From: Helicobacteraceae bacterium
Lineage (GTDB): Bacteria > Campylobacterota > Campylobacteria > Campylobacterales > Sulfurimonadaceae
Assembly (NCBI GenBank): GCA_027083665.1
Contig: JALWNV010000185.1
Location: 1 to 14,703, forward strand
Length of the DNA: 14,703 nt
Direction of reading: 5' to 3'
The notes beneath the pieces are model-generated. The model was not told the origin of the DNA, did not search any database, and saw nothing but the letters and a program-made list of their open reading frames with translations. This document shows positions 1 to 13,314 of the stretch, in pieces. How positions within the stretch are numbered: position 1 is the stretch's first letter; each line of letters begins with the position of its first letter. Both the position numbers and the translations under genes were made by a program.

Positions 1-468
1 ACGGTCACCGAGTTCATTGAGCGCCTCGTAGGCCATACCGGCACTCAGTGCCCCGTCGCCGATCATAACAACCGGTATCCTCTCGCCCTGTTCGCCTTTG
101 AGCGCGATCGCCTTGGCCGCACCGACTCCCAGCGATATGGACGTGGAAGAGTGTCCGGCGACAAAATAGTCGTGTTCGCTCTCGTCGGGCTTGGTGTAGC
201 CGCTGAGCCCCCCGAACTGACGAAGCGTATCGAATGCCTCCCAGCGCCCGGTCAGCAGTTTATGGGCGTATGCCTGATGCGAAACATCGAAAATGAAAGG
301 ATCTTTTTCCGAATCGAACACCGCATGCATCGCGACGATCAGCTCCGTCGCGCCCAGCGTCGAACTGAGGTGGCCGCCGTTTTGGCTGACGACGTCGAGA
401 ATCCGTTCGCGAATCGACCGGCACTGCTGCGCAAGCGCAGTATAATCATGACTCTTTTTCTGGTTCAT
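1..468 (-). CDS. dxs: 1-deoxy-D-xylulose-5-phosphate synthase, N-terminal part (truncated by window edge)
   Basis: Makes 1-deoxy-D-xylulose 5-phosphate from pyruvate and glyceraldehyde 3-phosphate, using thiamine diphosphate, as the first step of the MEP isoprenoid pathway in the cytoplasm. The visible 156 codons start at ATG 466-468 ([10 protein letters not shown]) and run in frame off the left edge. Family signatures are clear: [11 protein letters not shown] (about residues 34-44), [15 protein letters not shown] with the cofactor-region histidine, AGHSSTSIS, and the thiamine-diphosphate motif [15 protein letters not shown] near the cut. The full protein should be about 600 residues, so roughly the last three quarters are missing only because of the window. 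The gene follows the FliF/FliG-like gene by 62 bases. In Campylobacter dxs lies just after fliH, so its position is conserved. A weak -10-like box in the gap could give it its own promoter. The ribosome-binding site is poor. Confidence 0.96.
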
Positions 469-508
469 TCATTTCACTTTTCGTCACGCTGGAGATTATT
501 TCAACGGC

Positions 509-514
509 ATTTTA
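509..514 (-). promoter_or_regulatory. possible -10 box for dxs
   Basis: The minus strand reads TTTTTGGCTAAAATGCC here. A TAAAAT hexamer is preceded by a T-run, as is common in Campylobacterota sigma-70 promoters, which lack a strict -35 box. A start near 502 would give a leader of about 34 bases. It is only a motif match, and read-through from upstream could also express dxs. Confidence 0.3.
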
Positions 515-530
515 GCCAAAAAGCCCGAAG

Positions 531-1409
531 TCAAAGCTTCCCAGGACGCATCAACTCCGCCAATTCAGTCCGCAGGATCTGCGCCGTTTCGTTATCGGAA
601 AAGAGCTCCAGGATTTCACGCTGAAGCGCAGGAGAAAGCTTTGAAAAAATCGCCTTGATTTTTTCGAATCCTTCCGAATGTTCCCATCTCCGCACTTTTG
701 CCTCGAACATCGACACCACCTGCCGGCACAAAGCCTCATCGCATCCTTTCCAACGCGCCATCCGCTTCCACACCGCTCTGCGCTGCGCCGCCGGCATCGC
801 TTCGAGCAAACCCGCGCTTTTTTCAGTTTCAGCGGACAGGAGGAAAACCGTGACGACCTGCGGATGCTCCCGTTGCAGCAGCTTCAGTCGCAGCGCGGTT
901 TTTTCCTGCGACATGTCCGGCATCACGCCGCTCGCCGTTTTCACCGGTTCCGGCCGGGCGGCAGCGGCAACCGTTTCCCTGCGGCGCAGATCGGAGCGAA
1001 TCCGCAGACCAAGCGACGCAAATAGCCACAATACCGCTGCAAGCATCCCCAGCAACAGCAGCTGAAACACTCTTCGCGACACGGAATATCCCGTCTCCGT
1101 CGTGCCGGAGGGCTTAGCGTGTCTGCATATGCCGGAGGCGGCAAGCGCCTCACGAAGGCGATCGGCATCTTTTCCGGGAACCACGATGCTTCCCGTCTCA
1201 TCGAACGCGTACACCGTCGCAGTCGTATCGAGATAATCGATAATGCGTACGGATTCATTCGGAGTAGTCCTCGCGCATAGCGGCACCATCGGAAGCGAAA
1301 ACGCACGATACAGCGCCGCGGCGATCGCCAGCGCGGCGATCAGCAATACCGATGCGAAAACAATCTTTTGCGGCAGCGGACGGGCGTTCAAAAGGGAAAA
1401 CGCACGCAT
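531..1409 (-). CDS. FliF-FliG chimera-like inner-membrane protein at the fliFGH locus
   Basis: This gene is not a standard annotated family; the reading comes from motifs. Residues 15-37 form a membrane helix. Residues 41-95 resemble the first ring-building motif of FliF/YscJ: a short strand, a helix (NESVRIIDYL), a strand ending in SIVVPG, and the helix signature DADRLREALAASG. About 12 residues later comes a second membrane helix (112-135) followed by a basic stretch. After an Ala/Pro-rich linker, residues 179-240 resemble the FliG middle domain: EHPQ at 181-184, then VVTVFLL, a KSAGLLEAMPAAQRRAVWKRMA helix pair in two parts, and a further helix. Residues 245-290 form another helical repeat, like FliG ARM/C-domain helices. 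FliF RBM2/RBM3 and C-tail, the FliG N-domain and the torque helix are not seen. The start ATG lies 11 bases after the hisC stop, with GAGAGAG upstream. The frame is intact. A degenerate relic is the alternative. Confidence 0.68.
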   Translation of the reverse strand: MRAFSLLNARPLPQKIVFASVLLIAALAIAAALYRAFSLPMVPLCARTTPNESVRIIDYLDTTATVYAFDETGSIVVPGKDADRLREALAASGICRHAKPSGTTETGYSVSRRVFQLLLLGMLAAVLWLFASLGLRIRSDLRRRETVAAAARPEPVKTASGVMPDMSQEKTALRLKLLQREHPQVVTVFLLSAETEKSAGLLEAMPAAQRRAVWKRMARWKGCDEALCRQVVSMFEAKVRRWEHSEGFEKIKAIFSKLSPALQREILELFSDNETAQILRTELAELMRPGKL

Positions 1410-1420
1410 CCGCCGCTCTC

Positions 1421-2518
1421 TCAGTCCAGCAGCTCGGCTGCCAGCGCAAAAAACCGGTCGTTCTCCTCCGGCTTCCCGATCGTCACACGAATGGCGTTGA
1501 GACCGTAGCCGGACAGGTCCCGGACGATCACCCCCCGGCGCAAAAGCCCTTCGGCAACGTCCGTCGACGAACGCGGAGGTTCAAAACAGAGCGTGATGAA
1601 GTTCGTGTAGCTGTCGATCGTCTCGAGACCGTATTCCTGCGCGAACGCCTCATAGCGTTTCATCTGGTCGAAATTGTGTTCGATACTCCGCTGCACGAAC
1701 GCTTCATCTCCGAGCGCGACGGCCGCCGCCTCGAGCGACAGGGTCGTGATGTTAAACGGCGGGCGCAGTTTATACAGCGCTTCGATAATCGGCTCCGCCG
1801 CAATGCCGTAGCCCACCCGCATCCCGCCGAGGCCGTAGGCTTTGGAAAACGTTCCGAGGTAAAGGACGTTCGGAAACCTTCCGATCAGCTCCGACGGTTC
1901 AACCGCTTTGGCGGAATCTTTGTATCGGGTGTACTCCATATACGCACCGTCGACAACCACCAGCGTATCGGCATCGATCTTCTCCAAAAACGCCGTGAGC
2001 GCTTCGGCGTCGACGGCATCCCCTGTCGGATTGTTGGGCGTGCAGATGAAGATGATCGACGGGCGATGCTCGAGGTAAAGCGCATAAAACTCGTCGAAAT
2101 CGTGTTCCCGCGACGCGGTACGGACGACCGACGCACCCACGTGCCTGGCATAAATCTCGTACATGGCGAACGTCACACTGTTCATCAGAATCTTCGAACG
2201 GCTGCCGGCCTTGGCATGGATCGCAAACTCGATCACCTGATCGCTTCCCGCACCGATGATGATCTCTCGGCTCCCGACACCGAAACGTTCCGCCAGCGCC
2301 CCTTTGAGCGCATACATCGAATCGTCGGGATAGAGCGCCATTTTCGGCAGGATCGCCGCTACCGCCTCCTGCACCGCAGGAGAACAGCCGAACGGATTTT
2401 CGTTGCTCGCAAGTTTGACGACATCTTCCGGCGCGATTCCGAACTCGCGCACCACCAGTTCAATGGGTTTGCCCGCCTCGTACGTCTTGATGGCGTCGAG
2501 TGTCTTGTTGAATGTCAT
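1421..2518 (-). CDS. hisC: histidinol-phosphate aminotransferase
   Basis: A pyridoxal-phosphate aminotransferase (fold type I) that converts imidazole-acetol phosphate and glutamate to histidinol phosphate in histidine synthesis. Many HisC2-type enzymes also transaminate aromatic keto acids, which would suit its place directly after pheA; that dual role is inference. At 365 residues it has normal length. Visible motifs are SNENPFG (39-44), GAGSDQ (89-94), CTPNNPTG (159-166), the [10 protein letters not shown] strand with the cofactor aspartate D190, and the Schiff-base lysine K226 in [16 protein letters not shown], with R234 beyond it. I chose ATG 2516-2518 over an in-frame upstream start because AAAGGGG sits just before it and [10 protein letters not shown] fits the family start. 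The start overlaps the pheA stop as ATGA, which suggests translational coupling. The next gene begins 11 bases after its stop. Confidence 0.93.
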
Positions 2519-3606
2519 ACATCCCCTTTCACGTAGCTGCCCAGCCACGAGATTTCATCGGTGTGGCGCCGGATGACAGTCTGGACATTCTCATCGTCGA
2601 TATGGCCGTAAAAATCGATAAAGAACCAGTACCCGAATCCGTCGTCGCCTTTGGAAGGACGGCTCTCGATCTTGCTGAGGTTGATCTCGTGCGCGTCGAA
2701 ATCCTGCAGGAAGTGCACAAGCGCTCCCGGCTCGCCGGCATTTTTGAGCCGGGCGAGAATCGAGGTCTTATCCTCTCCGCTCGGGGCATTCTTGAAGTCG
2801 CTCAGGATCACGAAACGGGTCGTATTGTCTGCGACGTCCTCGATATTTTCAAACATCATCGGCACACCGTAAAGCTTGGCCGCAATGTGGCTGCAAATCG
2901 CCGCCGCCTCGGGATCTTCCGCAGCGAGAATCGCCGCCTTCGCCGTCGATTCCACCGGAATCTGCTCAACATTGTGCAGCTCGTGTTCGTTAAGAAATTC
3001 GCGGCACTGGCCGAAACCCTTGTCCTTGGAATAGATCCGCCTGATCTCGTCGAGGTGCGCCGCCTTGGTCGCGAAAGTCATATGAATCGGCATATACAGT
3101 TCCGCGACGATTTTCATCGGACTCGATGCCAACAGGTCGAGCGTCTCGCCCACCACCCCGTCCTGGCGGCTTTCGATCGGAACCACCCCGAATTTCGCCC
3201 GCCGACTCTCGAGGGCTTTGAACACCCCGCTGATCGTCCGCATGGGAAGGTATTCGCTCATCGCCCCGAAGCGGCTTTCGGCCGCCTGATGCGTAAAGGT
3301 GCCTTCCGGACCGAGATATGCGATACGTTCGGGAAGCTCCAGGTTTCGGGCCACGGCGAATATCTCGAGAAAAATCGCTTCGATCGCGCTGGCGTTGAGC
3401 AGACCGTTTTGCTGCTCGTTGAGCCTTTTCAGGCGCTCGAGAATCGCTTTTTCACGCTCGGGACGGTAGATCGGTGCTCCGCTTTCGTTTTTAATCTCGC
3501 CGACGCGCTCGACGACCTTCATCCGTTCGTTGATCAGCCCGAGCAGCTGATCGTCGATAATATCGATCGCACCGCGGCAATCTTCCAATGTCTCAAGCTT
3601 CTTCAT
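2515..3606 (-). CDS. pheA: bifunctional chorismate mutase / prephenate dehydratase (P-protein)
   Basis: Converts chorismate to prephenate and then to phenylpyruvate, the committed branch to phenylalanine. The 363-residue protein has three parts: an AroQ-type chorismate mutase helix domain (about 1-88, with [20 protein letters not shown]), a prephenate dehydratase domain (about 95-270, opening with [14 protein letters not shown] and ending with the TTRFVIL catalytic loop), and a C-terminal ACT domain (about 280-355) with the ESRP motif and GYWFFIDF strand for phenylalanine feedback. One oddity is the usual VPIEN motif, which reads VPIESRQDG, so the conserved Asn is Ser146. The start is ATG 3604-3606, with GTG 3607-3609 directly before it as an alternative. 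The gene overlaps the end of the HAD gene by 14 bases and shares ATGA with hisC, so this is a tight operon. Confidence 0.93.
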
Positions 3607-4390
3607 CACGTTTCGCTTTCACTCTGATCTTCGAAATGTCATTATACACCATCACATCCCTCTCTTCGCTTCGCAGCCGCGAAACCAGCACGTCATCGGG
3701 CCGGACCTTTCCGCTGAGTACCAGCGCCGTTCCCATCCCCAGTGCCGCCGCACCCCGCAAATCCCCCTCGTAATCGTCGCTGATCATGGTAATTTCCGAA
3801 AAAACGGCGTCCGGCACCGACATCCGCAGCCGCCGAAGCGCTTCGTGATAGAACGGGACCGAAGGTTTTCCCACAGTACGGTAGGGAACCGACGCGGCGA
3901 AAGAGAGCATTTTCAGCAAAGCGCCCACTCCGGGGTACCGTTTCCCTTCGTGCACATACAGTGTCGTTTCGTGCATACCGTACAATGCCGCACCGCGGCT
4001 GAGCAGTTCGATCATCTGTGCAAACGTTTCGCTGTCGTAGTCGGACCGAACGGAAACAAGGAGTGCGCCGGGCGTATCGTAATCGAGGGTATACCCGAGT
4101 GCCTGAAGCTGTGTCCTGAACGCTTCGCTGCCGTACACGGCGATACCGGCCGAGCGGGGAACGATCCGCTCGACCATCATCAGCGCGTCGAGATAGCGCT
4201 GCGGCGGGATGGAAAACCCGATGCGGTTAAGGTAGGCGAGGAAGTCGCCGCTCGCCGCTTTGGTATTGTTCGTCACGACAAGATAAGGGATCTTTTCGGC
4301 GTTGAGCGCCGCAAGCCACTCCGCGGCACCGGGCAGAGGCCGCCGATACGTATCGTCGATCAGTGTTCCCTGAACGTCGATGAAGTACAT
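3593..4390 (-). CDS. HAD-superfamily (HAD-IIA, NagD-like) protein with altered motif I
   Basis: A cytoplasmic haloacid-dehalogenase-fold protein of 265 residues; the substrate is unknown. Motif I is FIDVQGTL (residues 4-10), with nucleophile D5 but glutamine at position 7, where phosphatases have the acid/base aspartate. Motif II is VVTNNTK (T40), the motif III lysine is K175 in GKPS, and motif IV is ISDDYEGDLRGAAALGMG (D205/D206, D210). The HAD-IIA cap lies between, ending near KRYPGVGALLKML. The start ATG shares one base with the lysA stop (TGATG), and the 3' end overlaps pheA. A homologue lies between lysA and pheA in Campylobacter (from memory), so the link is old. It may act on a sugar phosphate or nucleotide, or be catalytically weak. 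I cannot assign a pathway from sequence. Confidence 0.82.
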   Translation of the reverse strand: MYFIDVQGTLIDDTYRRPLPGAAEWLAALNAEKIPYLVVTNNTKAASGDFLAYLNRIGFSIPPQRYLDALMMVERIVPRSAGIAVYGSEAFRTQLQALGYTLDYDTPGALLVSVRSDYDSETFAQMIELLSRGAALYGMHETTLYVHEGKRYPGVGALLKMLSFAASVPYRTVGKPSVPFYHEALRRLRMSVPDAVFSEITMISDDYEGDLRGAAALGMGTALVLSGKVRPDDVLVSRLRSEERDVMVYNDISKIRVKAKRDEEA

Positions 4391-5601
4391 CAGTCGAGGC
4401 AGGCCTGTTCCGCCGCAATCAGGTCTTCGAACGTTTCGCGCATACGTATCAGCCGGGCTTCTCCCTTCTCCACGGCGACTTCGGCCGAACGGCCGCGGGT
4501 ATTGTAGTTGCTTCCCATACCGAAACCGTAGGCGCCGGCACTGTGCACAATCAGCAGATCGCCGTGCTCCATCGGCGGCAGCGGGTAGTCTTTGGCCAGA
4601 AAGTCGCCGCTTTCGCAGACCGGGCCCACCACATCCGCCGGCGTCGGTGTACCGGCATGCGGTTTTGCCGCGGATATATAATGGTACGCCTTGTACAGAC
4701 TCGGGCGCAACAGGTCGTTCATCGCTCCGTCAACGACGACGAAACGTTTGGAACCGTTTCGTTTTTCATACAGTACCCGTGTCAGAAAATAGCCGGCATT
4801 GGCAGTCAGAAAACGGCCCGGCTCGCATACAACGGTAATATCCATGCCCGTCAGCGTCGAGAGAATGGCCTGTGCATAGTCGTAAGGCTCGATCGTCGTT
4901 TCATCGTCATAACGTACGCCCAGCCCGCCGCCTACATCGAAAAATTTCAGCTCGATCCCGACCGCCGCATGCAAAGAGCGGACCAGATCAGCGACAATCT
5001 CACTGGCTTCCCGGATAGGGTCGAGTTCCGTCAGCTGACTGCCGATATGAAAGTGAATCCCCACCGGATCCAGCGCTTCGGAGGCATTGGCGCGGATATA
5101 CATGCGTTTTGCCGTATCGATGTCCACACCGAACTTGTTGTCGTGCAGTCCCGTCGAGATATACGGGTGCGTTTTCGGATCGATATTGGGATTGACACGG
5201 ATGCTGATACGGGCCGTCCTTTCCAGCTCCGCGGCAATCAGCTCGACCCGCCCCATTTCCGCCTCGCTTTCGACATTGATGTAGAGGATATCGCGTTCGA
5301 TCGCCTCGCGGATCTCATCGTCGCGTTTGCCCACGCCGCTGAAGATCACCTTGTATTTCGGGACGCCCGCCATCATCGCGCGGCGGACTTCTCCGATGGA
5401 GACGCAGTCCGCACCCGCACCGAGCCGGGCGAAATGCCCGACGACACTCAGATTGGAGTTCGCCTTGACGGCATAGGCCAACAGGGATTTTCGGCCGCGA
5501 AACGCCTCTTTGAGCTTTTCGTACTGCTCGCGCATCGCATCAAAATCATAAACATACAGCGGCGTGCCGTAGGCATCTGCCAGAGAATTGAAATCGGTCA
5601 A
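4390..5601 (-). CDS. lysA: diaminopimelate decarboxylase
   Basis: Decarboxylates meso-diaminopimelate to L-lysine, the last step of the DAP pathway, with pyridoxal phosphate. The 403 residues match the usual length. Visible features of this alanine-racemase-fold (type III) enzyme are the Schiff-base lysine K46 in YAVKANSN, HFHIGSQ (183-189), the phosphate-binding GGGLG (224-228), EPGR (260-263), the C-terminal domain active-site motif GPVCESGD with C329, and the aromatic Y358 in GAYGFGMGSNYN. The start codon is TTG at 5599-5601. A strong AAAAGGAAG site sits about five bases upstream and the family N-terminus fits (MTDFNSLADAYGTPLYVYD). It follows lptG by 46 bases, and its stop overlaps the start of the HAD gene by one base. 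Confidence 0.95.
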   Translation of the reverse strand: MTDFNSLADAYGTPLYVYDFDAMREQYEKLKEAFRGRKSLLAYAVKANSNLSVVGHFARLGAGADCVSIGEVRRAMMAGVPKYKVIFSGVGKRDDEIREAIERDILYINVESEAEMGRVELIAAELERTARISIRVNPNIDPKTHPYISTGLHDNKFGVDIDTAKRMYIRANASEALDPVGIHFHIGSQLTELDPIREASEIVADLVRSLHAAVGIELKFFDVGGGLGVRYDDETTIEPYDYAQAILSTLTGMDITVVCEPGRFLTANAGYFLTRVLYEKRNGSKRFVVVDGAMNDLLRPSLYKAYHYISAAKPHAGTPTPADVVGPVCESGDFLAKDYPLPPMEHGDLLIVHSAGAYGFGMGSNYNTRGRSAEVAVEKGEARLIRMRETFEDLIAAEQACLD

Positions 5602-5647
5602 CAGGCTTCCTTTTTTATTCGAATGATAGCAAAAACGGCGTTAGAGA

Positions 5648-6727
5648 TCAGTCAGCCGCCGCCGTACGGTGCGTACGGTTGCGATACCACTGAACCACCG
5701 CCGCGAAAAACAGGACCACGACCGGCAGAACGATTCCCGCTTCGCTGGGGATCGTCTTGTTGTTGGAGAGCTCCGTCAGCATAAAAAGTACCGCCCATGT
5801 CATCATAATCGCCAAAATCGCGCCGAAGCTAAAAAGCGTGATATTCAAAAAACGCGGGCTGATCGGCACGAAAAAGAAGATCAATATGATCAGACTCGGG
5901 ACAAAAAGCGGCGTGATAAAGATACGGTAAAGTGCACTTTTGATTTTATCGACATTGATATTCTGATCGTTGAACAGCAGCAGTGCGTCGACCGCATCGA
6001 GGATGGTATAGTTGACCTTGCCTTCATAGACCTGGTCGAGTATCTTGGGCCGGAAACCGTGCAGCATCTCCAGCTCGCGTTTCGTTTCGACACTGATCCC
6101 CTTGCTTGTCAGGGAAAGATGCTCCGGTTTCTGCATGACCGTCGCCGTTTTGAGATGCCATGCGTCATCGGCGTAATAGGCTTCGGGTGCCACAAGAATT
6201 TGACGCAGCACGCCGCTTTCGGTACGAAAGATACGGATATCCTCCGCGCGTTCTTGCAGCGGATAGAGTTTTCCGAAATAGACATAACGGTCTTTAAACG
6301 TAAAAAAAAGATTCGAAGTCGGCTGCAAAAACTGTGACGACCTTCTGATATTGTTCGAATACTCATCCGCACGGGCGAACGACGTCGCATGCAATGCGAT
6401 ATAGATCACGACAATGATCGTCGCCACTGCCACAAACGGCCGGATCACATCGGTTTTACTGTAACCCAGCGCATAAATTGCAACAAGCGCATTGGAACGA
6501 ATAAGAAATATCTTCGTCGCGACCATCGCGAACAGCAGAGAAAGCGGCAGTAGCATATCAATCGCGAAAAACGCTTTGTACATCAGATAAATCACGAGCA
6601 GGTTGGCCGACTTCAGGCTGTCGGCATTGTCCATATAGTCGAAGCCGACCATAAAAAACACCAGTGCGAACAAGATAACGCCGATATATTTGAGATAATG
6701 CATTGAAATATACTTGAAAAGCAGCAT
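5648..6727 (-). CDS. lptG: LptF/LptG-family permease of the LPS export ABC transporter
   Basis: Inner-membrane subunit (YjgP/YjgQ family) of the Lpt machine, which takes lipopolysaccharide or lipooligosaccharide from the inner membrane and passes it to the periplasmic bridge, powered by LptB. At 359 residues it has the expected length. There are three N-terminal membrane segments (about 13-30, 44-76, 93-115), a periplasmic jellyroll region (about 120-265), and three C-terminal segments (268-289, 294-318, 328-348) ending in a short basic tail. An in-frame start lies upstream inside pth, but ATG 6725-6727 has AAAGGG six to eight bases ahead and gives a normal N-terminus. It begins 13 bases after the pth stop. 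LptF and LptG are hard to tell apart by eye; the equivalent Campylobacter gene lies in the same place between pth and lysA. Confidence 0.87.
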   Translation of the reverse strand: MLLFKYISMHYLKYIGVILFALVFFMVGFDYMDNADSLKSANLLVIYLMYKAFFAIDMLLPLSLLFAMVATKIFLIRSNALVAIYALGYSKTDVIRPFVAVATIIVVIYIALHATSFARADEYSNNIRRSSQFLQPTSNLFFTFKDRYVYFGKLYPLQERAEDIRIFRTESGVLRQILVAPEAYYADDAWHLKTATVMQKPEHLSLTSKGISVETKRELEMLHGFRPKILDQVYEGKVNYTILDAVDALLLFNDQNINVDKIKSALYRIFITPLFVPSLIILIFFFVPISPRFLNITLFSFGAILAIMMTWAVLFMLTELSNNKTIPSEAGIVLPVVVLFFAAVVQWYRNRTHRTAAAD

Positions 6728-6740
6728 CGGCACCCTTTCG

Positions 6741-7298
6741 CTATTGCAGCGGACTTTTTCTGATCGTATACCGGGATGCGACACGCTCGAGCGGCTCACG
6801 CAAAAGCGCTTCGACGGCATCGGCGGTATGGGAGATCCACGGTTCGAGGTACGGTTTCTCTTCCGGAGAAAAGGGGCTCAGGACATAATCAGCCACCCGG
6901 TTCCGATCCCCCGGGTGGCCGATCCCCATGCGTACGCGGATATAGTCATTCGAGATCGCCGCATCGGCGGACTTGAGACCGTTGTGACCGCCGTGACCGC
7001 CCCCGTGTTTGAAACGCAGAGTCCCGAAAGGCAGGTCGAGATCGTCATGGATCACGGCAACCTCATCGATTTTGTAAAAACGCTTCACGGCGGATATGGC
7101 ACGCCCCGAAAGATTCATGTAAGTCAACGGTTTTAAAAGATAATGGCCGGAGATTTTATAGAGGTCGCCTTCGAACGAGGCTTTTTTGATCGCTTCATGG
7201 CTATGACGGCGAAGCAGTTCGTCCGCCACCATAAACCCGACATTGTGCCGGGTCGTTTCGTACGCCGAACCCGGATTGCCCAGACCGACGATCAGCAA
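6741..7298 (-). CDS. pth: peptidyl-tRNA hydrolase
   Basis: Releases tRNA from peptidyl-tRNA dropped by stalled ribosomes, in the cytoplasm. It is 185 residues long, as usual. Active-site residues are in place: N8 in VGLGNPG, the catalytic H18 in TTRHNVGF, N62 in LTYMNLSG, the HDDLDLPFG loop (84-92) with its conserved acidic residues, and N106 in GGHGGHNGLKS. The start codon is TTG (7296-7298), two bases after the rplY stop. No ATG lies nearby, and MLIVGLGNPG is the expected start of the family. The ribosome-binding site is weak (AAGTAAG across the rplY stop), so coupling to rplY translation is likely. The rplY-pth pair is common in bacteria and suits a shared ribosome-linked role. Confidence 0.95.
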   Translation of the reverse strand: MLIVGLGNPGSAYETTRHNVGFMVADELLRRHSHEAIKKASFEGDLYKISGHYLLKPLTYMNLSGRAISAVKRFYKIDEVAVIHDDLDLPFGTLRFKHGGGHGGHNGLKSADAAISNDYIRVRMGIGHPGDRNRVADYVLSPFSPEEKPYLEPWISHTADAVEALLREPLERVASRYTIRKSPLQ

Positions 7299-7300
7299 AC

Positions 7301-7837
7301 TTACTTCGCTTTGATGATACTCAGCACCGAAACCCGGTCCGCATCCGTAAACGTATAGTCCTCGGATGTCGCCAGGTCACGGATCAGAATGGAGTCTCCG
7401 AGGTCCAGCCCGGAGACATCGATCTCGATTTTGTTCGGGATATTCTCGATCGGGCCTTTGACCGTCAAACGCTTTTTCGCGATGTAGAGCATCCCTTTGT
7501 TTTTCAGACCGATCGGCGACCCGACCGGCGAAACCGGTACGTTGTAACGGGTGACGAGACCCGGCTGGGCGACCATGAGGTCGACGTGCAGCAGATTTCC
7601 GGACACCGGATGGGACTCGTACGCCTGAACGACGACATCCATCTCTTTCTCGCCGACTTTGATCGGGAATGCAAGGGTCTCTTTCTTGCGAACCGTACGG
7701 ATGAACTCGTTCATTTTAAAAGCGGCATGAATATTCTCAAGCCCCTTTCCGTAAATGTTGGCAATCAGATAACCATCCCGGCGCAGCGCTTTCGTACCGC
7801 GCTTGCCGGTACTCTCTCTAACGATACCTTCTAGCAT
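7301..7837 (-). CDS. rplY: 50S ribosomal protein bL25 with C-terminal CTC domain
   Basis: Binds 5S rRNA in the large ribosomal subunit. The 178-residue length marks the long CTC-type bL25, not the short E. coli form of about 94 residues. The N-terminal 5S-binding beta-barrel covers about 1-90 (MLEGIVRESTGKRGTKALRR, then NIYGKG and SHPVSGNLLHVDL). The CTC beta domain follows (NVPVSPVGSPIGLKNKGML to the end) and carries IEIDVSGLDLGDSILIRDL. The start is ATG 7835-7837 with AAAAGGA about six bases upstream. It is the first gene of the long run down to dxs and is preceded by tandem -10 boxes. Position before pth matches Campylobacter. Confidence 0.95.
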   Translation of the reverse strand: MLEGIVRESTGKRGTKALRRDGYLIANIYGKGLENIHAAFKMNEFIRTVRKKETLAFPIKVGEKEMDVVVQAYESHPVSGNLLHVDLMVAQPGLVTRYNVPVSPVGSPIGLKNKGMLYIAKKRLTVKGPIENIPNKIEIDVSGLDLGDSILIRDLATSEDYTFTDADRVSVLSIIKAK

Positions 7838-7869
7838 ATATGTGTCCTTTTGGTAAAAAATAGGACGGA

Positions 7870-7898
7870 ATTATACTTAAAGACTTTTTAAACATAGC
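7870..7898 (-). promoter_or_regulatory. promoter P1 for the rplY-to-dxs run
   Basis: The minus strand carries a perfect TATAAT at 7870-7875, preceded by TTTAAAAAGTCTTTAAG. No clear -35 hexamer lies 17 bases upstream (GCTATG), as is normal in Campylobacterota, where an AT-periodic upstream region replaces it. A start near 7863 gives a leader of about 25 bases with the AAAAGGA ribosome-binding site. Confidence 0.65.
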
Positions 7899-7907
7899 TA
7901 AAATCAG

Positions 7908-7913
7908 ATTATA
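7908..7913 (-). promoter_or_regulatory. second -10 box (P2) upstream of rplY
   Basis: A second TATAAT on the minus strand in the context GAAAATATAATCTG overlaps the pilT stop codon, 38 bases upstream of the P1 box. It may be a tandem promoter for rplY, or chance in AT-rich sequence. Confidence 0.35.
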
Positions 7914-9132
7914 TTTTCAATTCGAAAATCTCATCCTCGCCGAAACGCGGCTTCTCTTCTTCCTCGCCGCCCTCTTTTTTCTGCAGCGTTGAAGAACCGT
8001 CTTTGGCCGTCACACGATCGGTCAGACCTTCCATCCTCAGCTTCATGTCCGCCGGAGACGTCGCATATTTGAACGCCTCTTCGGTCGAAATCTTTCTCGA
8101 CTTCCACAGATCGAGGATCCCCTGATCGAAACTCTGCGAACCGTAAACCTCTTTACCTTCTTCGATCGCATCGCGGATCTCCATATCGCGGTCTTCCATA
8201 ATCAGCTGTTCGATACGGGGCGTTTTCACCAATATCTCAAGGGCCGCCGTCCGCTTCCCGTCGATCGTCGGAATAAGACGCTGCGAAATGACACCTTCAA
8301 GTACCGCCGCCAGCGTCATTCGGACACGGTTTTGTTCTTCGCTCGGAAAAATCGACACGATACGGTTGATCGTCTCTTTGGCATCGAGCGTATGCAGTGT
8401 CGAGAAGACCAGGTGACCCGAATCGGCGGCATGCAGGGCGGTTTCCACCGTTTCCACATCCCGCATCTCCCCGACGAGAATGATATCCGGGTCCTCCCGC
8501 AATACCGCACGCAGCGCATTGGCGAAACTCTTGGTATCCTGTCCGACGCTGCGCTGGTTGACGATACACTTCCGGTCTTTGTGGACGAATTCGATCGGGT
8601 CTTCGATCGTGACGATATGTTTCCGCTTGCTCCAGTTGATTTCGTTGATGATCGCCGCAAGCGTCGTTGATTTCCCGGAACCGGTGACACCGGTGACAAG
8701 CACCAGCCCCCGTTCCGTCTTGGTGAACCGGTGCACGACTTTGGGCAGCCCCAGATCGTCGATGGAGACGATTTTGACGGGAATGACACGAAATACCGCC
8801 GACACCCCGTCCATCTGAAAAAAGATGTTGACCCGGAAACGGGTATTCTCGTCATACGTATAGACGAGGTCGAGCTCTTTGTTCTGCACAAACTCCTGAA
8901 ATCGGCTTCTTAAAAGTTCCTTGGCAAAGGTCAGAGCATCTTCCTTGCTCAGGATCTCGCCGCTCAAAGGCGTAATATCGCCGTTGATACGCGCACGCAC
9001 GACGGCGTTGGCTTTGAGGTGCAGATCCGACCCGCCCGCATCCATCATCCGCTTGAGATAACCCCGAATCCGATTGAGGGTCTCGAACGTCAGAGTTTCG
9101 ATATTGATTTCCGTATTGCTCACTCCGCTCAT
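7909..9132 (-). CDS. type IV pilus retraction ATPase, PilT/PilU family
   Basis: A hexameric secretion-type ATPase at the cytoplasmic base of type IV pili that drives pilus retraction, giving twitching, adhesion or DNA uptake. The 407 residues hold the N-terminal GGSDLHL motif (33-39), Walker A GVTGSGKST (148-156), the Asp box HIVTIEDPIEF (172-182), Walker B and catalytic glutamate in DIILVGEMRD (216-225), and the His box TALHAADSGHLVFSTLHT (231-248). The PilT retraction motif AIRNLIRE is replaced by EIRDAIEE (318-325). The following SFDQGILDLW and SPADMKLRMEGL are more PilU-like. After residue 370 comes a charged acidic tail (GEEEEK). The start ATG has GGAG six bases ahead, inside the last codons of tal, so the two genes are cotranscribed. 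No other pilus gene is in the window. Confidence 0.88.
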   Translation of the reverse strand: MSGVSNTEINIETLTFETLNRIRGYLKRMMDAGGSDLHLKANAVVRARINGDITPLSGEILSKEDALTFAKELLRSRFQEFVQNKELDLVYTYDENTRFRVNIFFQMDGVSAVFRVIPVKIVSIDDLGLPKVVHRFTKTERGLVLVTGVTGSGKSTTLAAIINEINWSKRKHIVTIEDPIEFVHKDRKCIVNQRSVGQDTKSFANALRAVLREDPDIILVGEMRDVETVETALHAADSGHLVFSTLHTLDAKETINRIVSIFPSEEQNRVRMTLAAVLEGVISQRLIPTIDGKRTAALEILVKTPRIEQLIMEDRDMEIRDAIEEGKEVYGSQSFDQGILDLWKSRKISTEEAFKYATSPADMKLRMEGLTDRVTAKDGSSTLQKKEGGEEEEKPRFGEDEIFELKI

Positions 9133-9135
9133 ACA

Positions 9136-10119
9136 CTACTCCACTTCTGCAAGAATTTCGGCAAAAGCCGATTTGAAGGCGTCGAGGCCCTCCGCCATCA
9201 ACTGCGTGAAAACGGAATCGATATCGATTCCCGCTTCCGCAATCCGTGAAAAATGCCGGGCGATCTTTTCGGTTTCGATCGGCAGTTTCGGCAGCGTGTC
9301 TCCTTCGTTTACGAACGCTTCGATCGTCGCGACGGGAGCCGTATTGACCGTATTGTATCCTAAAAGCCCGTCGACATAATAGGAGGGGCGGAGCCCGCCG
9401 CCTTTGACCCCCGTCGACGCAAACAGCGTACGGCATCGCGGGACTCCGGCCGCTTCCACGGCGGCATAGATATCCGCCGCATTGTAGATTCCCGAAAGCG
9501 CGGGCTGTATCCCTTTCGCTTCCAGCCGCGCATCAAGGGCCCGGTCGAGACGGCTGACGAAGACGCTGATAACCGTATCGACGGTCTGAGCGCCGCACTT
9601 CGATCCCCGGGCGAACGCTTCCGTGCACGCCAACGCCTGCGCTTTGGAAAACACCAGTGTCGCATTGACCGGTATCCCTTCACCGACAAGCATCTCCATC
9701 GCCTGAAAACCCGCTTCGGTCGCGGGAACTTTTATCATGACGTTGGGACGGCCGATGGTCCGGTAGAGCCGGCGCCCCTCCTCCAAAGTCCCGACGGCAT
9801 CGTCACACAAAAAAGGATCGACTTCGATACTCACATAGCCGTCATCGGCCTTTTCATATAAGGGATAAAGCACATCCGCGGCTTTCCGGATATCGTAGAT
9901 CGCCAATGCTTCGTACTTCTTCTTCGGTTCATGGCCGCGAAGTTCCTCGAGCTGCAGCTGATACGCCGCAGAAGTCAGAATCGCATTTTTGAAGATTGCG
10001 GGATTGGAGGTCGCTCCGTTGACGATCCCCTTGTCGATCAGTTGCTTCAATCCCGTCTCGATAAATTCGCGTTCGATAAAATCGGCCCATAACGAGAATT
10101 TCAGTTCCGGCAGATACAT
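9136..10119 (-). CDS. tal: transaldolase
   Basis: Transfers a dihydroxyacetone unit between sugar phosphates in the non-oxidative pentose phosphate pathway. The 327-residue protein resembles the Campylobacter-type Tal: FSLWADFIEREF near the start, GATSNPAIFK (35-44), SIEVDPFLCDDA, and the Schiff-base lysine K130 in NVMIKVPATEAGF. Further motifs are NATLVFS (152-158), SVFVSRLD (185-192), and LFASTGVKGGGLRPSYYVD with the phosphate-binding region. I chose ATG 10117-10119 because TGGAG lies eight bases upstream and MYLPELKFSLW fits the family; an in-frame upstream start would run through a leader hairpin. Its own promoter and leader lie just upstream. The stop is three bases from the pilT-family start, so the two form a pair, although the functions look unrelated. 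Confidence 0.93.
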   Translation of the reverse strand: MYLPELKFSLWADFIEREFIETGLKQLIDKGIVNGATSNPAIFKNAILTSAAYQLQLEELRGHEPKKKYEALAIYDIRKAADVLYPLYEKADDGYVSIEVDPFLCDDAVGTLEEGRRLYRTIGRPNVMIKVPATEAGFQAMEMLVGEGIPVNATLVFSKAQALACTEAFARGSKCGAQTVDTVISVFVSRLDRALDARLEAKGIQPALSGIYNAADIYAAVEAAGVPRCRTLFASTGVKGGGLRPSYYVDGLLGYNTVNTAPVATIEAFVNEGDTLPKLPIETEKIARHFSRIAEAGIDIDSVFTQLMAEGLDAFKSAFAEILAEVE

Positions 10120-10136
10120 ACGGCAAACTCCACATC

Positions 10137-10164
10137 GGGGCACTCCCGAATGGTTGGGGATGCC
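10137..10164 (-). other. hairpin in the tal 5' leader
   Basis: In the tal mRNA, GGGCA-UCCC pairs with GGGA-(G)-UGCCC, giving nine base pairs with one bulged G and a loop of about nine bases. It lies between the predicted transcription start (near 10178) and the GGAG site at 10128-10131. No U-run follows on the minus strand, so it is not a terminator for tal. It could affect mRNA stability or ribosome access, or bind a regulator. Confidence 0.5.
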
Positions 10165-10184
10165 CTTTATTTCAATTTGAAAAG

Positions 10185-10190
10185 ATTATA
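10185..10190 (-). promoter_or_regulatory. -10 box of the tal-pilT promoter
   Basis: A perfect TATAAT on the minus strand in the context TTGCTTTGGGCTATAATC, with a T-rich upstream region and no good -35 hexamer. A start near 10178 gives a leader of about 60 bases that includes the hairpin. A short inverted repeat (GCAAA...TTTGC, 10198-10213) overlaps the spacer and -35 region. Confidence 0.6.
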
Positions 10191-10226
10191 GCCCAAAGCA
10201 AATAAGAGTTTGCGAAAACAGCGCTG

Positions 10227-12041
10227 TCAATAGTAATGATGATAGGTTATAAAGCAACTCCGCTGCACTCCGTCGCGCTTCTCCTCGTAGTCGAACGAAA
10301 GTTTCATCGCGTTGTTTTGTCCCAGCCGGAACGTTTGCATCGCTTTCGCCGTCCACAGTCGCATACCGTCGTCATAGAAACGGTACCCGGCTTCCATATG
10401 CAGTTTCGAGCCGCTTCCGGTATACAACACACTTCCTATCGAGGGTTTGAGCGCCGTAACCGCCCGGTCGGTGACGAAGATCTCCGGATCGAAAAGCGTA
10501 TAAAGGTAGCCGCTGCCGTTTCCGGCACTGTAGCCTGCTCCGACGGAGAGACTGAACGTCGTTTTGCGTGTATAAAACGACTGGTCCCATCCGGCATGCA
10601 TCCGCCAGGAAAACGGTTTGAAAAACGCGCTCAAGGGTGCGATGGAAACGATCGAAAGCAGTGTCGCCTTCTCAACAGCCGCCCCGCCGTGATCGTAACG
10701 GGCGACGAGATCGAGAAATTCGATCTGCGTTCCGCGCAGAAAACCGATGTCGCTGTCGCCGAGATCATGATAGGCCGGACGGATCCCGATCGTCTGCAAA
10801 GGCCGGCCGTCCCGCCATCCCGCCGCGAACGCCGCCCGGGTCGCCCGATGTCCTTCGTCCGGGTTGGCCGGCCGGCGAATCGGTACTTTTTCCCCTCGTC
10901 CCAATGTCGCCCGGGCGGAGAGAACGGCATGATAGCGTTTGAGATACGTCGGTTTGTCGACATCACCTTTCATCAGATGATACTGAGCCAACTCCGCCGC
11001 GGCTTCGAGGATATAGCGTTTTTTCTGCCGGCTTATACCCGAATCGTTCAGTACCGCTTCGGGCACCGTTTCTCCGAACACCAGCGCTTTTGCCGCCGTC
11101 GTCCCGTTATCGTCCAGTACCGCCTCGTATGCCAGCAGGATTGTCCGCTTGGACGGCCGATAGTGTCTGGCTTTCACCACCCCTTCCGCTTCCGTCGCAT
11201 GAACCGTCTCCAGCGGGATGACCTGATAGGTGAAGTGTTCGCGGAGACGGATGCTCGGACGTGCGATCTCCATCAGCCAGAACATATTGTACGAACAGTT
11301 CTCATCGAAAAAGAAATACCAGTTGTAGACCCGCTGTATCTCCCAGATATGCCGCACCATCATCATGACTTCATCCGGGCTGAAATCGAGGTCGTATTCC
11401 CAGATATCACGCTGCTCGCTGTCACGGTACTCTTTGAGCTTTTCATAATACGGCAGCATGGAATACAGCCCCGGATAGCCGCCGAAAAGTCCTTTGAACG
11501 CGAAAAGAATGCCGTTCTCCTTGTCAGGATCGGCACCGGCGGCATAATTGATGGCATGCGAAAGCATTTTCGAATCATAGGAAGAGTCGATACGGATAAA
11601 AGTATGGCCGAACATCGAAGCCGGCGAATTGATATGCGCCGCCGAAAAGACAAGCGTCGCCGCCTGAGGATCGACCTTCTTGACAATCCGCTCGAATGCA
11701 CGGCAGTGCAAATCCGGCAATCCTTCAAGTTCCAGCGTCCGCCGCAGCCAGTAGCGGCGTGCCGGATAGAGACAACCCGTCGCATTGTCATCAAAACGGG
11801 GCTCTTCGTACAGAGCCGTGATCGTGGCATTGAGCTCCGCCGCCGCGTCCGTCTTGCCCTCAGGCGCGAGAAAAAATGCCGGATCGTCTATCTCACTCGT
11901 TTCACGGGGCATGTGCAGCAGCAGATGCCAGTACCGGCTTTGCGAAAGGTGCATCTTCTGCGCTTTTTCAAGGGCTTCTTCCAGCCGGTCCGCATTAAGT
12001 GTTCCCCCTATCAGAAGAAGTATCAACAGGTAACGGTACAC
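10227..12041 (-). CDS. exported DUF4105 / Lnb N-terminal-domain protein
   Basis: A 604-residue exported protein of uncertain function. Residues 1-17 form a short signal peptide (a YLLILLLIGGTLNA core, likely cleaved after LNA). The DUF4105 region follows, with LYPARRYWL, the signature HINSPASMFGHTFIRID (H146), and FFDENCSYNMFW (C249). The conserved His and Cys would suit a papain/NlpC-like thiol fold; that is inference. C90 and C113 could form a disulfide. From about residue 400 the sequence is beta-rich with alternating aromatic and polar residues and ends in HHYY, suggesting a beta-barrel or beta-sandwich, perhaps at the outer membrane. In some bacteria this N-terminal domain belongs to Lnb lipoprotein N-acyltransferases, but that role is unproven here. 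The start is GTG 12039-12041 with a poorly spaced AAAGG. No clear promoter precedes it; it lies just after the DUF3015 terminator. Confidence 0.82.
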   Translation of the reverse strand: MYRYLLILLLIGGTLNADRLEEALEKAQKMHLSQSRYWHLLLHMPRETSEIDDPAFFLAPEGKTDAAAELNATITALYEEPRFDDNATGCLYPARRYWLRRTLELEGLPDLHCRAFERIVKKVDPQAATLVFSAAHINSPASMFGHTFIRIDSSYDSKMLSHAINYAAGADPDKENGILFAFKGLFGGYPGLYSMLPYYEKLKEYRDSEQRDIWEYDLDFSPDEVMMMVRHIWEIQRVYNWYFFFDENCSYNMFWLMEIARPSIRLREHFTYQVIPLETVHATEAEGVVKARHYRPSKRTILLAYEAVLDDNGTTAAKALVFGETVPEAVLNDSGISRQKKRYILEAAAELAQYHLMKGDVDKPTYLKRYHAVLSARATLGRGEKVPIRRPANPDEGHRATRAAFAAGWRDGRPLQTIGIRPAYHDLGDSDIGFLRGTQIEFLDLVARYDHGGAAVEKATLLSIVSIAPLSAFFKPFSWRMHAGWDQSFYTRKTTFSLSVGAGYSAGNGSGYLYTLFDPEIFVTDRAVTALKPSIGSVLYTGSGSKLHMEAGYRFYDDGMRLWTAKAMQTFRLGQNNAMKLSFDYEEKRDGVQRSCFITYHHYY

Positions 12042-12069
12042 GGATCAAAAGCCTTTGAAAAAACGAAAT

Positions 12070-12109
12070 GGAAAAACACAAAAGAGGCGGGCCGGAAAAC
12101 GGCCGCGCC
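12070..12109 (-). terminator. intrinsic terminator after the DUF3015 gene
   Basis: On the minus strand the arms GGCG(C)GGCCG and CGGCCCGCC pair as a nine-base-pair GC-rich stem with one bulged C and a five-base loop (12086-12109). TCTTTTGTGTTTTT follows directly. It starts 11 bases after the DUF3015 stop. The DUF4105 gene begins about 30 bases beyond the U-run, so partial read-through could set its level. Confidence 0.85.
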
Positions 12110-12120
12110 ACAGAAAGAAG

Positions 12121-12567
12121 TTAGCCTTTGACCGTCACGATATTGTCGAGGACATCCGCCATCTTGACGTCTTTGGAGGTATAAATACGGTTGTAGTTTT
12201 CCTGAAGTGCCGCAGCGAACGCCGCTTTGTCTTCCGCTCCGAGAAGCTCTGCCAATGTCTCGACGGATTCGCCGTGCCCCATCGCCGCTTCTTTTGCCAA
12301 CTGGTCCATGTTCGACGCGACAAACTCGGCGGCGCGCTCGTTCATCACCAGCTTGACTTTCTTACATCCCGATGTCCCGGAAGTGATACCGAACGTCTGG
12401 TTTCCGACGGTACCGTTCGTCGTCGCCTGCAGCGCGAGCATCAGTGCCGAACTGTCGTCTTTGATGATCATGGCACCGAGGCCGCAACCTGTCTGATCGT
12501 TGACGCCGGCAAATGCCGCCGAACCGAGCGCCGCTACCGCAGCGATACTTACAAGAACTTTTTTCAT
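12121..12567 (-). CDS. exported DUF3015 protein
   Basis: A small, probably periplasmic protein of 148 residues and unknown function. Residues 1-20 are a classic signal peptide (KK, a hydrophobic core, then AAFA before GVNDQ). The mature part carries the DUF3015 signature: GCGLGAMI near its start, then ATTNGTVGNQTFGITSGTSGC. C28 and C68 are the only mature cysteines and probably form a disulfide. The C-terminal half is helical and acidic. The gene has its own promoter, a palindromic leader, a strong AAGGAG site seven bases before ATG 12565-12567, and a strong terminator, so high single-gene expression is likely. The next gene, DUF4105, is also exported, which suggests a joint envelope role. 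Confidence 0.88.
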   Translation of the reverse strand: MKKVLVSIAAVAALGSAAFAGVNDQTGCGLGAMIIKDDSSALMLALQATTNGTVGNQTFGITSGTSGCKKVKLVMNERAAEFVASNMDQLAKEAAMGHGESVETLAELLGAEDKAAFAAALQENYNRIYTSKDVKMADVLDNIVTVKG

Positions 12568-12580
12568 AACTTGACTCCTT

Positions 12581-12595
12581 CATCGTTTAACGATG
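12581..12595 (-). promoter_or_regulatory. perfect palindrome at the 5' end of the DUF3015 transcript
   Basis: CATCGTT and AACGATG are perfect seven-base arms around a single central base. The predicted transcript would begin at or beside this element and then run straight into AAGGAG. It could be an operator overlapping the start site or a 5' stem-loop that stabilises the mRNA. Confidence 0.5.
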
Positions 12596-12600
12596 CAGAC

Positions 12601-12606
12601 AGTATA
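12601..12606 (-). promoter_or_regulatory. -10 box of the DUF3015 promoter
   Basis: The minus strand reads CTGTTTTTATACTGTC. TATACT after a T-run, with TTTAAGC about 17 bases upstream, fits a Campylobacterota sigma-70 promoter. The predicted start is near 12594, giving a short leader made almost entirely of the palindrome and ribosome-binding site. Confidence 0.6.
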
Positions 12607-12646
12607 AAAACAGTTGGCTTAAAGCGGTATTACATTGCAGTCTTCC

Positions 12647-12662
12647 GCCGGTCAGAACCGGC
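12647..12662 (-). other. small hairpin across the aat stop codon
   Basis: GCCGGT and ACCGGC form a six-base-pair stem around the loop TCTG, and the stop codon TGA lies within it. No U-run follows, so it is at best a weak 3' end or processing signal for the clpA-aat transcript. Confidence 0.3.
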
Positions 12663-13314
12663 ACGCTTTAAGTGCCAGCTTCTCGAGGCGATGCAGAAAA
12701 AAATCCCGTGAAACCTCTATGGCCCCGAGACGTTTCAGGTGATCCGTCGGTACCTGTGCGTCTATCATCTCGAAACCTCTCGATTTGAGATGTTCCACCA
12801 AGACGGCAAAAGCGCTTTTGGAAGCGTCGCTGACATACGCGAACATCGATTCGCCGCAAAAGACACCCCCGACCGCCACCCCGTAGAGGCCGCCGACCAG
12901 TTTTCCGTTTTGCCAGGCTTCCACAGAATGCGCATGTCCCATCTCGTGCAGCGTGGTATAGGCTTCGACAATTTCCGGCAAAATCCACGTCGCATTCTGC
13001 CCCGGCCGGGGGATACGGGCGCAATTCCGTATCACCTCAGGAAACGCCGTATCCAACGTGATCTCGAAGTGTTTCATACGTTTTTTCAGGGATTTTCCCA
13101 ACCGGAAATCTTCGAGATTCAGGATGAGCCGGGGATCGGGCGACCACCAGAGAATCGGATCGCCTTCGCTGTACCACGGGAAAATACCGCTCCGGTATGC
13201 CAAAAGCAGCCTCGACGGAGACAAGTCTCCGCCGAACGCCACAATCCCGTTTTCATCCGCATCGCGCGGATCGGGAAAAGCGAGTTCGTAACGGATCTGC
13301 GGAGGAACGGTCAA
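12652..13314 (-). CDS. aat: leucyl/phenylalanyl-tRNA-protein transferase
   Basis: Attaches Leu or Phe from aminoacyl-tRNA to proteins with N-terminal Lys or Arg, marking them for ClpS/ClpAP degradation (bacterial N-degron pathway). The 220 residues show the full signature: GGDLSPSRLLLAYRSGIFPW (28-47), WWSPDPR (56-62), TWI, GHAHSVEAW, GGLYGVAVGGVFCGESMF (141-158), and the DAQ triad D185/Q187, which match the catalytic Asp and Gln of the E. coli enzyme. The start codon is TTG (13312-13314) and overlaps the clpA stop as TTGA, with GAGGAAG upstream inside clpA, so translation is probably coupled. Pairing with clpA makes functional sense, as both act in the same degradation route. A separate promoter for DUF3015 follows. 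Confidence 0.95.
   Translation of the reverse strand: MTVPPQIRYELAFPDPRDADENGIVAFGGDLSPSRLLLAYRSGIFPWYSEGDPILWWSPDPRLILNLEDFRLGKSLKKRMKHFEITLDTAFPEVIRNCARIPRPGQNATWILPEIVEAYTTLHEMGHAHSVEAWQNGKLVGGLYGVAVGGVFCGESMFAYVSDASKSAFAVLVEHLKSRGFEMIDAQVPTDHLKRLGAIEVSRDFFLHRLEKLALKACRF

Follow-up and report, generated by a model that had tools for sequence, protein, structure and literature searches.

A compact FliF–FliG fusion between hisC and dxs in flagellum-less Sulfurimonadaceae and its possible role in positioning FlhG

Domain organization of the fusion and its locus

We analyzed a 14,703-nucleotide stretch of Sulfurimonadaceae DNA (GenBank assembly GCA_027083665.1, contig JALWNV010000185.1, positions 1–14,703; ‘the window’) in which a minus-strand gene between hisC and dxs encodes a 292-residue protein. 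The protein is composed of a transmembrane helix (TM1), a FliF/YscJ-type ring-building motif 1 (RBM1), a second transmembrane helix (TM2), the middle armadillo domain of FliG (ARM_M) with its EHPQ motif, and the start of the FliG ARM_C segment. The FliF-type and the FliG-type half each score above Pfam cut-offs, in agreement with the predicted fold. The gene is almost certainly a FliF–FliG fusion descended from a fliF–fliG pair. An initial annotation had described a compact FliF–FliG chimera-like protein, which is confirmed as an observation and supported in its interpretation. Its two membrane helices are borne out by hydropathy and the structure model, its single FliF/YscJ ring motif by Pfam and fold matches, and its FliG middle domain with EHPQ is joined by the ARM_C start; profile searches match FliF/YscJ and FliG in the respective halves. 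The features are as follows.

531..1409, minus strand: FliF–FliG fusion gene, 292 residues (open reading frame with domain and neighbourhood evidence)
1296..1376, minus strand: TM helix 1 (residues 12–38 helical in the model; hydropathy peak at 16–34)
1125..1292, minus strand: ring-building motif 1, FliF/YscJ type (residues 40–95; profile and fold match)
1005..1061, minus strand: TM helix 2 (residues 117–135; hydropathy)
672..911, minus strand: FliG middle (ARM_M) domain (residues 167–246; profile and fold match)
858..869, minus strand: EHPQ motif (residues 181–184; family alignment)
552..665, minus strand: start of the FliG ARM_C segment (residues 249–286; profile and fold match)
1421..2548, minus strand: hisC, upstream neighbour, gap of 11 nt (neighbourhood)
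1..468, minus strand: dxs, downstream neighbour, gap of 62 nt, truncated by the window edge

The RBM1 fold follows TM1, as in the YscJ/FliF family, and the YscJ_FliF match spans profile positions 6–68 of 179 at just 1 bit over the cut-off. RBM1 is predicted from charge to be periplasmic, with the basic stretch after TM2 predicted to lie on the cytoplasmic side. The EHPQ motif in ARM_M is unchanged in all 12 aligned family members; in FliG, EHPQ is the FliM-binding motif and contacts the FliM middle domain. The ARM_C start is matched by fold to 3hjl (114–238), while an MgtE_N-like match at residues 249–280 is under cut-off, as is FliG_N (20 bits over residues 183–267; cut-off 25). The fusion stops short of the FliG MFxF motif and torque domain at the C-terminus of that protein.

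The fusion falls well short of either complete parent. It resembles FliF, the MS-ring protein, in the fold and order of TM1 and RBM1 and in gene position after hisC, but it lacks RBM2, RBM3, the collar and the C-terminal FliG-binding tail and is joined to FliG parts; at 292 residues, it has no YscJ_FliF_C match listed at E 10 in the Pfam search. It resembles the rotor/switch protein FliG in ARM_M with EHPQ and the ARM_C start, but lacks FliG_N and the torque domain and has TM helices of its own; FliG_C is not matched in the Pfam search, and TIGR00207 scores 21.3 bits against a cut-off of 226.7. A covalent FliF-to-FliG order is also present in PDB entry 8z4d, a 945-residue construct that we take to be engineered, whereas the window fusion is natural, has 292 residues and belongs to a lineage without flagella.

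Origin of the fusion and loss of the flagellum

The initial annotation had proposed a search for orthologues in the hisC–dxs interval, and this located fusions of the same type in relatives and fliF–fliG–fliH at the same place in flagellates. We read 58 hisC loci in genomes of this family, sampled from a larger group. Of these, 34 contain a complete hisC–fliF–fliG–fliH–dxs array, and another seven begin this way but end at contig ends or are broken (in G054 after 29 FliF residues). The remaining 17 include the window genome (G000) and six of the seven other genomes of its genus (g1; G002–G007), all with a window-type fusion. In the seventh, G001, hisC and dxs have nothing in between. Other fusion types occupy the interval in G049, G064 and five g8 genomes; in G047 the interval is reduced to a short FliG_C-like remnant, and the site is unassembled in G018.

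These fusions differ in what they retain. The G049 fusion (genus g12; 548 residues from the first Met) contains TM1–RBM1–TM2 followed by the N, M and C domains of FliG. The five g8 fusions (~303–318 residues) contain two TM helices separated by a short loop without RBM1 (hydropathy was run on two); FliG_C is above cut-off in all five and FliG_M in two (G014 and G077). The G064 fusion (g14; 512 residues) joins a nearly whole FliF to FliG_C. In a HisC+Dxs tree without an outgroup, g1 (less G001), g8 and g12 stand apart from the rest (support 90) and g8 groups with g12 (84); G064 is nested in the flagellated genus g14 (94–100), and G001 forms a long branch placed without confidence. From this grouping, the fusions of g1, g8 and g12 may go back to a single event, the G049 form being nearest the ancestor, and the G064 fusion is, on the same tree, a separate event. 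We observed that G064 (contigs C3 and C38), in an otherwise flagellated genus, pairs its FliF–FliG_C fusion with an FlhF-like gene at the flhF locus; FlhG, FliMN_C and FlhA were not found there, making it a distinct fusion with a different retained partner.

A family-profile search of the order (298 genomes) placed the fusion, among the matches listed, only in the window's genus (four sampled genomes), and the other listed matches sit in frames sized like ordinary FliG or FliF; the g8-type fusion and the g8 FliM-like gene described below are known from the loci read. A further contig scan gave two loci, which coincide with those of G005 and G002. When the fusions of G000, G003 and G007 were compared by BLAST at 1e-4 with a single flagellate reference, neither FliF nor FliG was matched; their ties run through Pfam, profile and fold instead.

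Flagellar genes are common in a 61-genome sample of the family (FlhA in 43, FliMN_C in 48, FlhF over cut-off in 42 and MotA_N in 39). Among its seven genomes from the window's genus, FlhA, FliMN_C and MotA_N are found in none except G005, and FlhF above cut-off in none. The window genome (76% complete) and four single-contig genomes of the genus have no FlhA, FliMN_C or MotA_N match and only sub-cut-off FlhF matches. No flagellum to which a basal-body protein would belong was found in these genomes, G005 of the same genus being the exception, and an FlhF-based polar landmark was rejected for the genus because no FlhF lies over the cut-off there. FlhF profile matches in G005 and G064 are near-complete, yet under cut-off. 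G005 carries, on a contig other than that of the fusion, a separate flagellar cluster of another type (C18:1-16000), with genes named mostly by eye as motA/motB-like, FliG, FliM, FliN, flgF/G-like, FlhA, FlhF-like and FlhG; this may be a regained, foreign flagellum.

The genus is apparently Thiomicrolovo, which NCBI taxonomy places within Sulfurimonadaceae, and the same-genus relatives appear to include Sulfurimonas sp. HSL-1656 (G006), HSL1-2 (G004) and S. diazotrophicus (G003). These named records correct the family from Sulfurovaceae, as in the initial annotation, to Sulfurimonadaceae. HSL-1656 and HSL1-2, now Thiomicrolovo, are reported to be non-motile with flagellar genes absent (PMC12403661), and S. 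diazotrophicus HSL3-1 is reported to be non-motile with no flagellum seen (PMC12029903); cells are described as coccoid to oval in the former and as rods in the latter. Other Campylobacterota have also lost all flagellar genes (PMC9321776). The earlier suggestion that the protein is unrelated to swimming fits, because the flagellar genes tested are missing from the genus relatives, G005 excepted.

Partner genes retained with the fusion

An FlhG-like ATPase is present at E 1e-15 in 12 of the 16 flagellum-less genomes of the family sample (g1 without G005, 4/6; g8, 7/7; g12, 1/2; G064, none). Searching with G003 FlhG gives matches at E 1e-121 to 1e-177 in six of the eight genus genomes; G000 and G001 show just a weak match near 1e-12. 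The genus protein is 63% identical to FlhG of the flagellated G069 and has the same aroQ–folK context. It is nearer FlhG than MinD (34% identity to E. coli MinD; minD_bact 109 bits, under the cut-off of 212.9) and lies at the flhG locus. In four flagellum-less genomes the P-loop and the C-terminal KRL-containing helix are kept, as in G069. At E 1e-10, FlhG is the sole strong MinD-like match in the four single-contig genus genomes and no MinD was found; a 394-residue frame also appears near 1e-11, and E. coli MinD would score ~1e-17 against the same query. Of the weak ParA-type matches (~1e-11 to 1e-12), two read by eye have an Mrp-like N-terminus.

The G069 locus reads, with names assigned by eye, aroQ–folK–flhF–flhG–x–fliA–fliM–fliY–x–trmU. 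In G003 it is reduced to aroQ–folK–flhG followed by a 182-residue gene, here called mini-FliM, that begins at the flhG stop and is found in the same six genus genomes as FlhG. Mini-FliM has an N-terminal EIDAL-like motif and a CheC-like (FliM) middle domain; the C-terminal SPOA (FliMN_C) domain was not found in the three proteins tested, and the model stops after the middle domain. Its kinship to FliM is supported by the fold search; direct profile comparison with FliM was weak (E 0.002, probability 14%). Titles of FliG–FliM middle-domain complexes occur among the fold-search matches in the fusion and mini-FliM searches. In an N-x2-N-E-x2-L-G stretch of mini-FliM the N, N, E, L and G are unchanged in 20 rows, and its place in the chain suggests that it is the FliG-binding loop. 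In five g8 genomes (and in G056, where it is truncated by the contig end), flhG is followed by a ~320-residue gene with an N-terminal EIDALL-like motif that occupies the fliM–fliY slot and is perhaps a FliM–FliY-derived fusion. No literature linking FlhG with EIDALL was found.

The three genes are retained together. Across g1 and g8, the fusion is intact and flhG readable in 11 genomes (G002–G007, G014, G063, G068, G073 and G077), all of which also have a FliM-like gene; no such gene was found in the two genomes without an intact fusion (G001 and G047). Left out of this count were G000 (76% complete, partners not found), G049 (80% complete, FlhG not found), G018 (fusion site unassembled), G056 (fusion site not found) and G064 (FlhF-like gene without FlhG). 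The 11 cases are not independent events because the genomes are related, and the pieces in G005 are spread over three contigs. Six of the eight genus genomes thus combine FlhG with parts derived from FliF, FliG and FliM, a combination not found in the incomplete window genome. It is likely that the fusion, FlhG and mini-FliM form one module.

Proposed role and competing explanations

We propose that, upon loss of the flagellum, RBM2, RBM3 and the collar of FliF, FliG_N, the FliG torque domain and fliH would have been removed, leaving TM1–RBM1–TM2 joined to ARM_M/ARM_C, a remainder that was retained rather than decaying. The fusion would serve as a membrane scaffold with RBM1 outside and the FliG part inside. 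Its preserved EHPQ face would most likely dock mini-FliM, whose N-terminus would hold the MinD-like ATPase FlhG at the membrane. FlhG so placed would mark the poles or keep division off them, as in Campylobacter jejuni. The physical contacts among the three proteins, ring formation by the fusion, and the presence of FlhG and mini-FliM in the window's own species are presumed here. In monotrichous species FlhG is bound by the N-terminus of FliM (review PMC12826062), and in C. jejuni FlhG together with fliF, fliM and fliN prevents polar division, a fliG mutant having little or no effect (PMC3228812); a later paper reports minicells in fliG and fliY mutants and none in fliH and fliI mutants (PMC6946799). 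We favour, with some reserve, the reading that the flagellar base was domesticated into a membrane scaffold for positioning FlhG, since this explanation uses every retained part; whether the module acts in division or at the pole is, from the C. jejuni analogy, evenly balanced. The fuller proposal, that a fusion ring carrying mini-FliM recruits FlhG as a MinD substitute, with lineages having trimmed an ancestral fusion differently and at least one having made its own, is tentative and falls slightly below that balance.

The scaffold might instead serve another client at the pole or envelope, such as type IV pili, chemosensory proteins or FlgSR-type signalling, with FlhG positioning it and playing no part in division. 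Type IV pili may be present in the window organism, and be that client, because a PilT/PilU-family ATPase gene lies 6.5 kb away (7909..9132, minus strand; TIGR01420, 430.7 bits against a cut-off of 319.1). FlhG partners differ among species (PMC12826062), and in the non-flagellated Lysobacter enzymogenes FT3SS-like flagellar genes are likewise reused, for twitching; Lysobacter retains the export apparatus, whereas here it is a ring scaffold and a positioning ATPase that persist (PMC7277350). The retained set corresponds, however, to the C. jejuni division set, and we consider another client possible but unlikely. Less probable again is a free-standing small membrane ring of RBM1 and ARM_M/ARM_C with some other cargo and no link to FlhG. 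The retained parts are among those that oligomerize in FliF and FliG, and the window genome shows the fusion with FlhG and mini-FliM not found. Against this, the same six of eight genus genomes hold all three genes and G001 none, and g8 genomes retain FlhG and the FliM-like gene with fusions that have no RBM1.

The fusion could also be a decaying pseudogene, fliF–fliG deletion debris left open by chance between two genes. The family history includes large deletions, with the fusion decayed in G047 and absent in G001. In five same-genus genomes (G002, G003, G004, G006 and G007), fusion dN/dS is 0.20–0.32 across all ten pairs, above hisC (0.016–0.092) and dxs (0–0.043), so that the fusion evolves faster than its neighbours. 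The alignment nevertheless has no gap columns in 288, the six pairs tested all have dN below dS (p 2e-7 to 3e-16), the EHPQ motif is invariant, and the frame stays open at near-constant length in seven genomes and in database relatives. In the four closest pairs, dN/dS is 0.07–0.13 in the FliG part and 0.28–0.35 in the membrane/RBM1 part; most pairs with G005 are saturated. The closest relatives of the window fusion are represented by protein sequences alone (P0002, 94% identity; P0003, 66%; P0004, 64%). The pseudogene was rejected on dN/dS and the absence of indels in sister species and is improbable, and the fusion is very probably a functional protein. Chance resemblance of an unrelated protein made of two TM helices and a helical tail, to which the 1-bit YscJ_FliF margin lends something, is scarcely credible and was rejected by the site, the fold match and intermediate forms such as the G049 fusion with RBM1 and whole FliG.

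Several observations weigh against the FlhG-positioning scaffold. RBM1 is marginal by sequence scores, and the best Foldseek matches of the fusion model all fall short of E 0.001. In Pfam, mini-FliM matches no FliM entry and gives one DinB_2 match under cut-off, and the g8 FliM-like assignment is weak (Pfam under cut-off; E 0.003 in another search). Constraint on the FliG part does not exceed that on the rest in two more distant pairs (dN/dS 0.26–0.36), and pairs with G000 reach 0.49–0.58 at dS 1.5–1.8, near saturation, and therefore give no test of the window's own lineage at a usable distance. The window genome itself, 76% complete, yielded neither FlhG nor mini-FliM. G001, of the same GTDB genus, has neither the fusion, FlhG nor mini-FliM (mini-FliM query); G047 keeps FlhG with trmU directly after it and no FliM-like neighbour; G018 (g12; C101) has flhG after folK with no FliM-like gene behind; and G064 has an FlhF-like gene in place of FlhG. 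In G068, a 163-residue frame (C88:1-7000, about 256–744) scores over cut-off for FliMN_C (34 bits); it is flanked by a C-terminal piece of FlhF and by a trmU-like gene, on a contig other than the fusion's, and is either a retained FliN-like protein or contamination (listed at 5%). In C. jejuni, the fliG phenotype differs between PMC3228812 and PMC6946799, a stable FlhG–C-ring contact was not detected, and FlhF is needed with FlhG; FlhF is gone from the window's genus, apart from an FlhF-like gene in the separate G005 cluster.

The closest known system is polar division control in C. jejuni (PMC3228812, PMC6946799), whose FlhG, FliF, FliG and FliM parts are kept in the genus relatives, with no MinD found. 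The C. jejuni scaffold is the complete flagellar base with FlhF, whereas these relatives have a trimmed fusion and mini-FliM and no flagellum or FlhF. The individual parts, and what they do in C. jejuni, are known already; the trimmed assembly standing alone is not, and neither natural FliF–FliG fusions nor a retained set of FlhG and mini-FliM came up in searches of open-access literature. The mini-FliM family carries no Pfam name. In flagellates, any job of the flagellar base beyond motility is difficult to test, since base mutants lack the flagellum as well. In these bacteria the flagellum appears to have been lost in evolution, with retention of the membrane anchor, the FliG middle domain, the FliM middle domain and FlhG, in cultivated isolates described as non-motile (PMC12403661, PMC12029903), and the question is therefore directly testable. 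The natural series of FliF–FliG fusions also shows which ring modules are dispensable.
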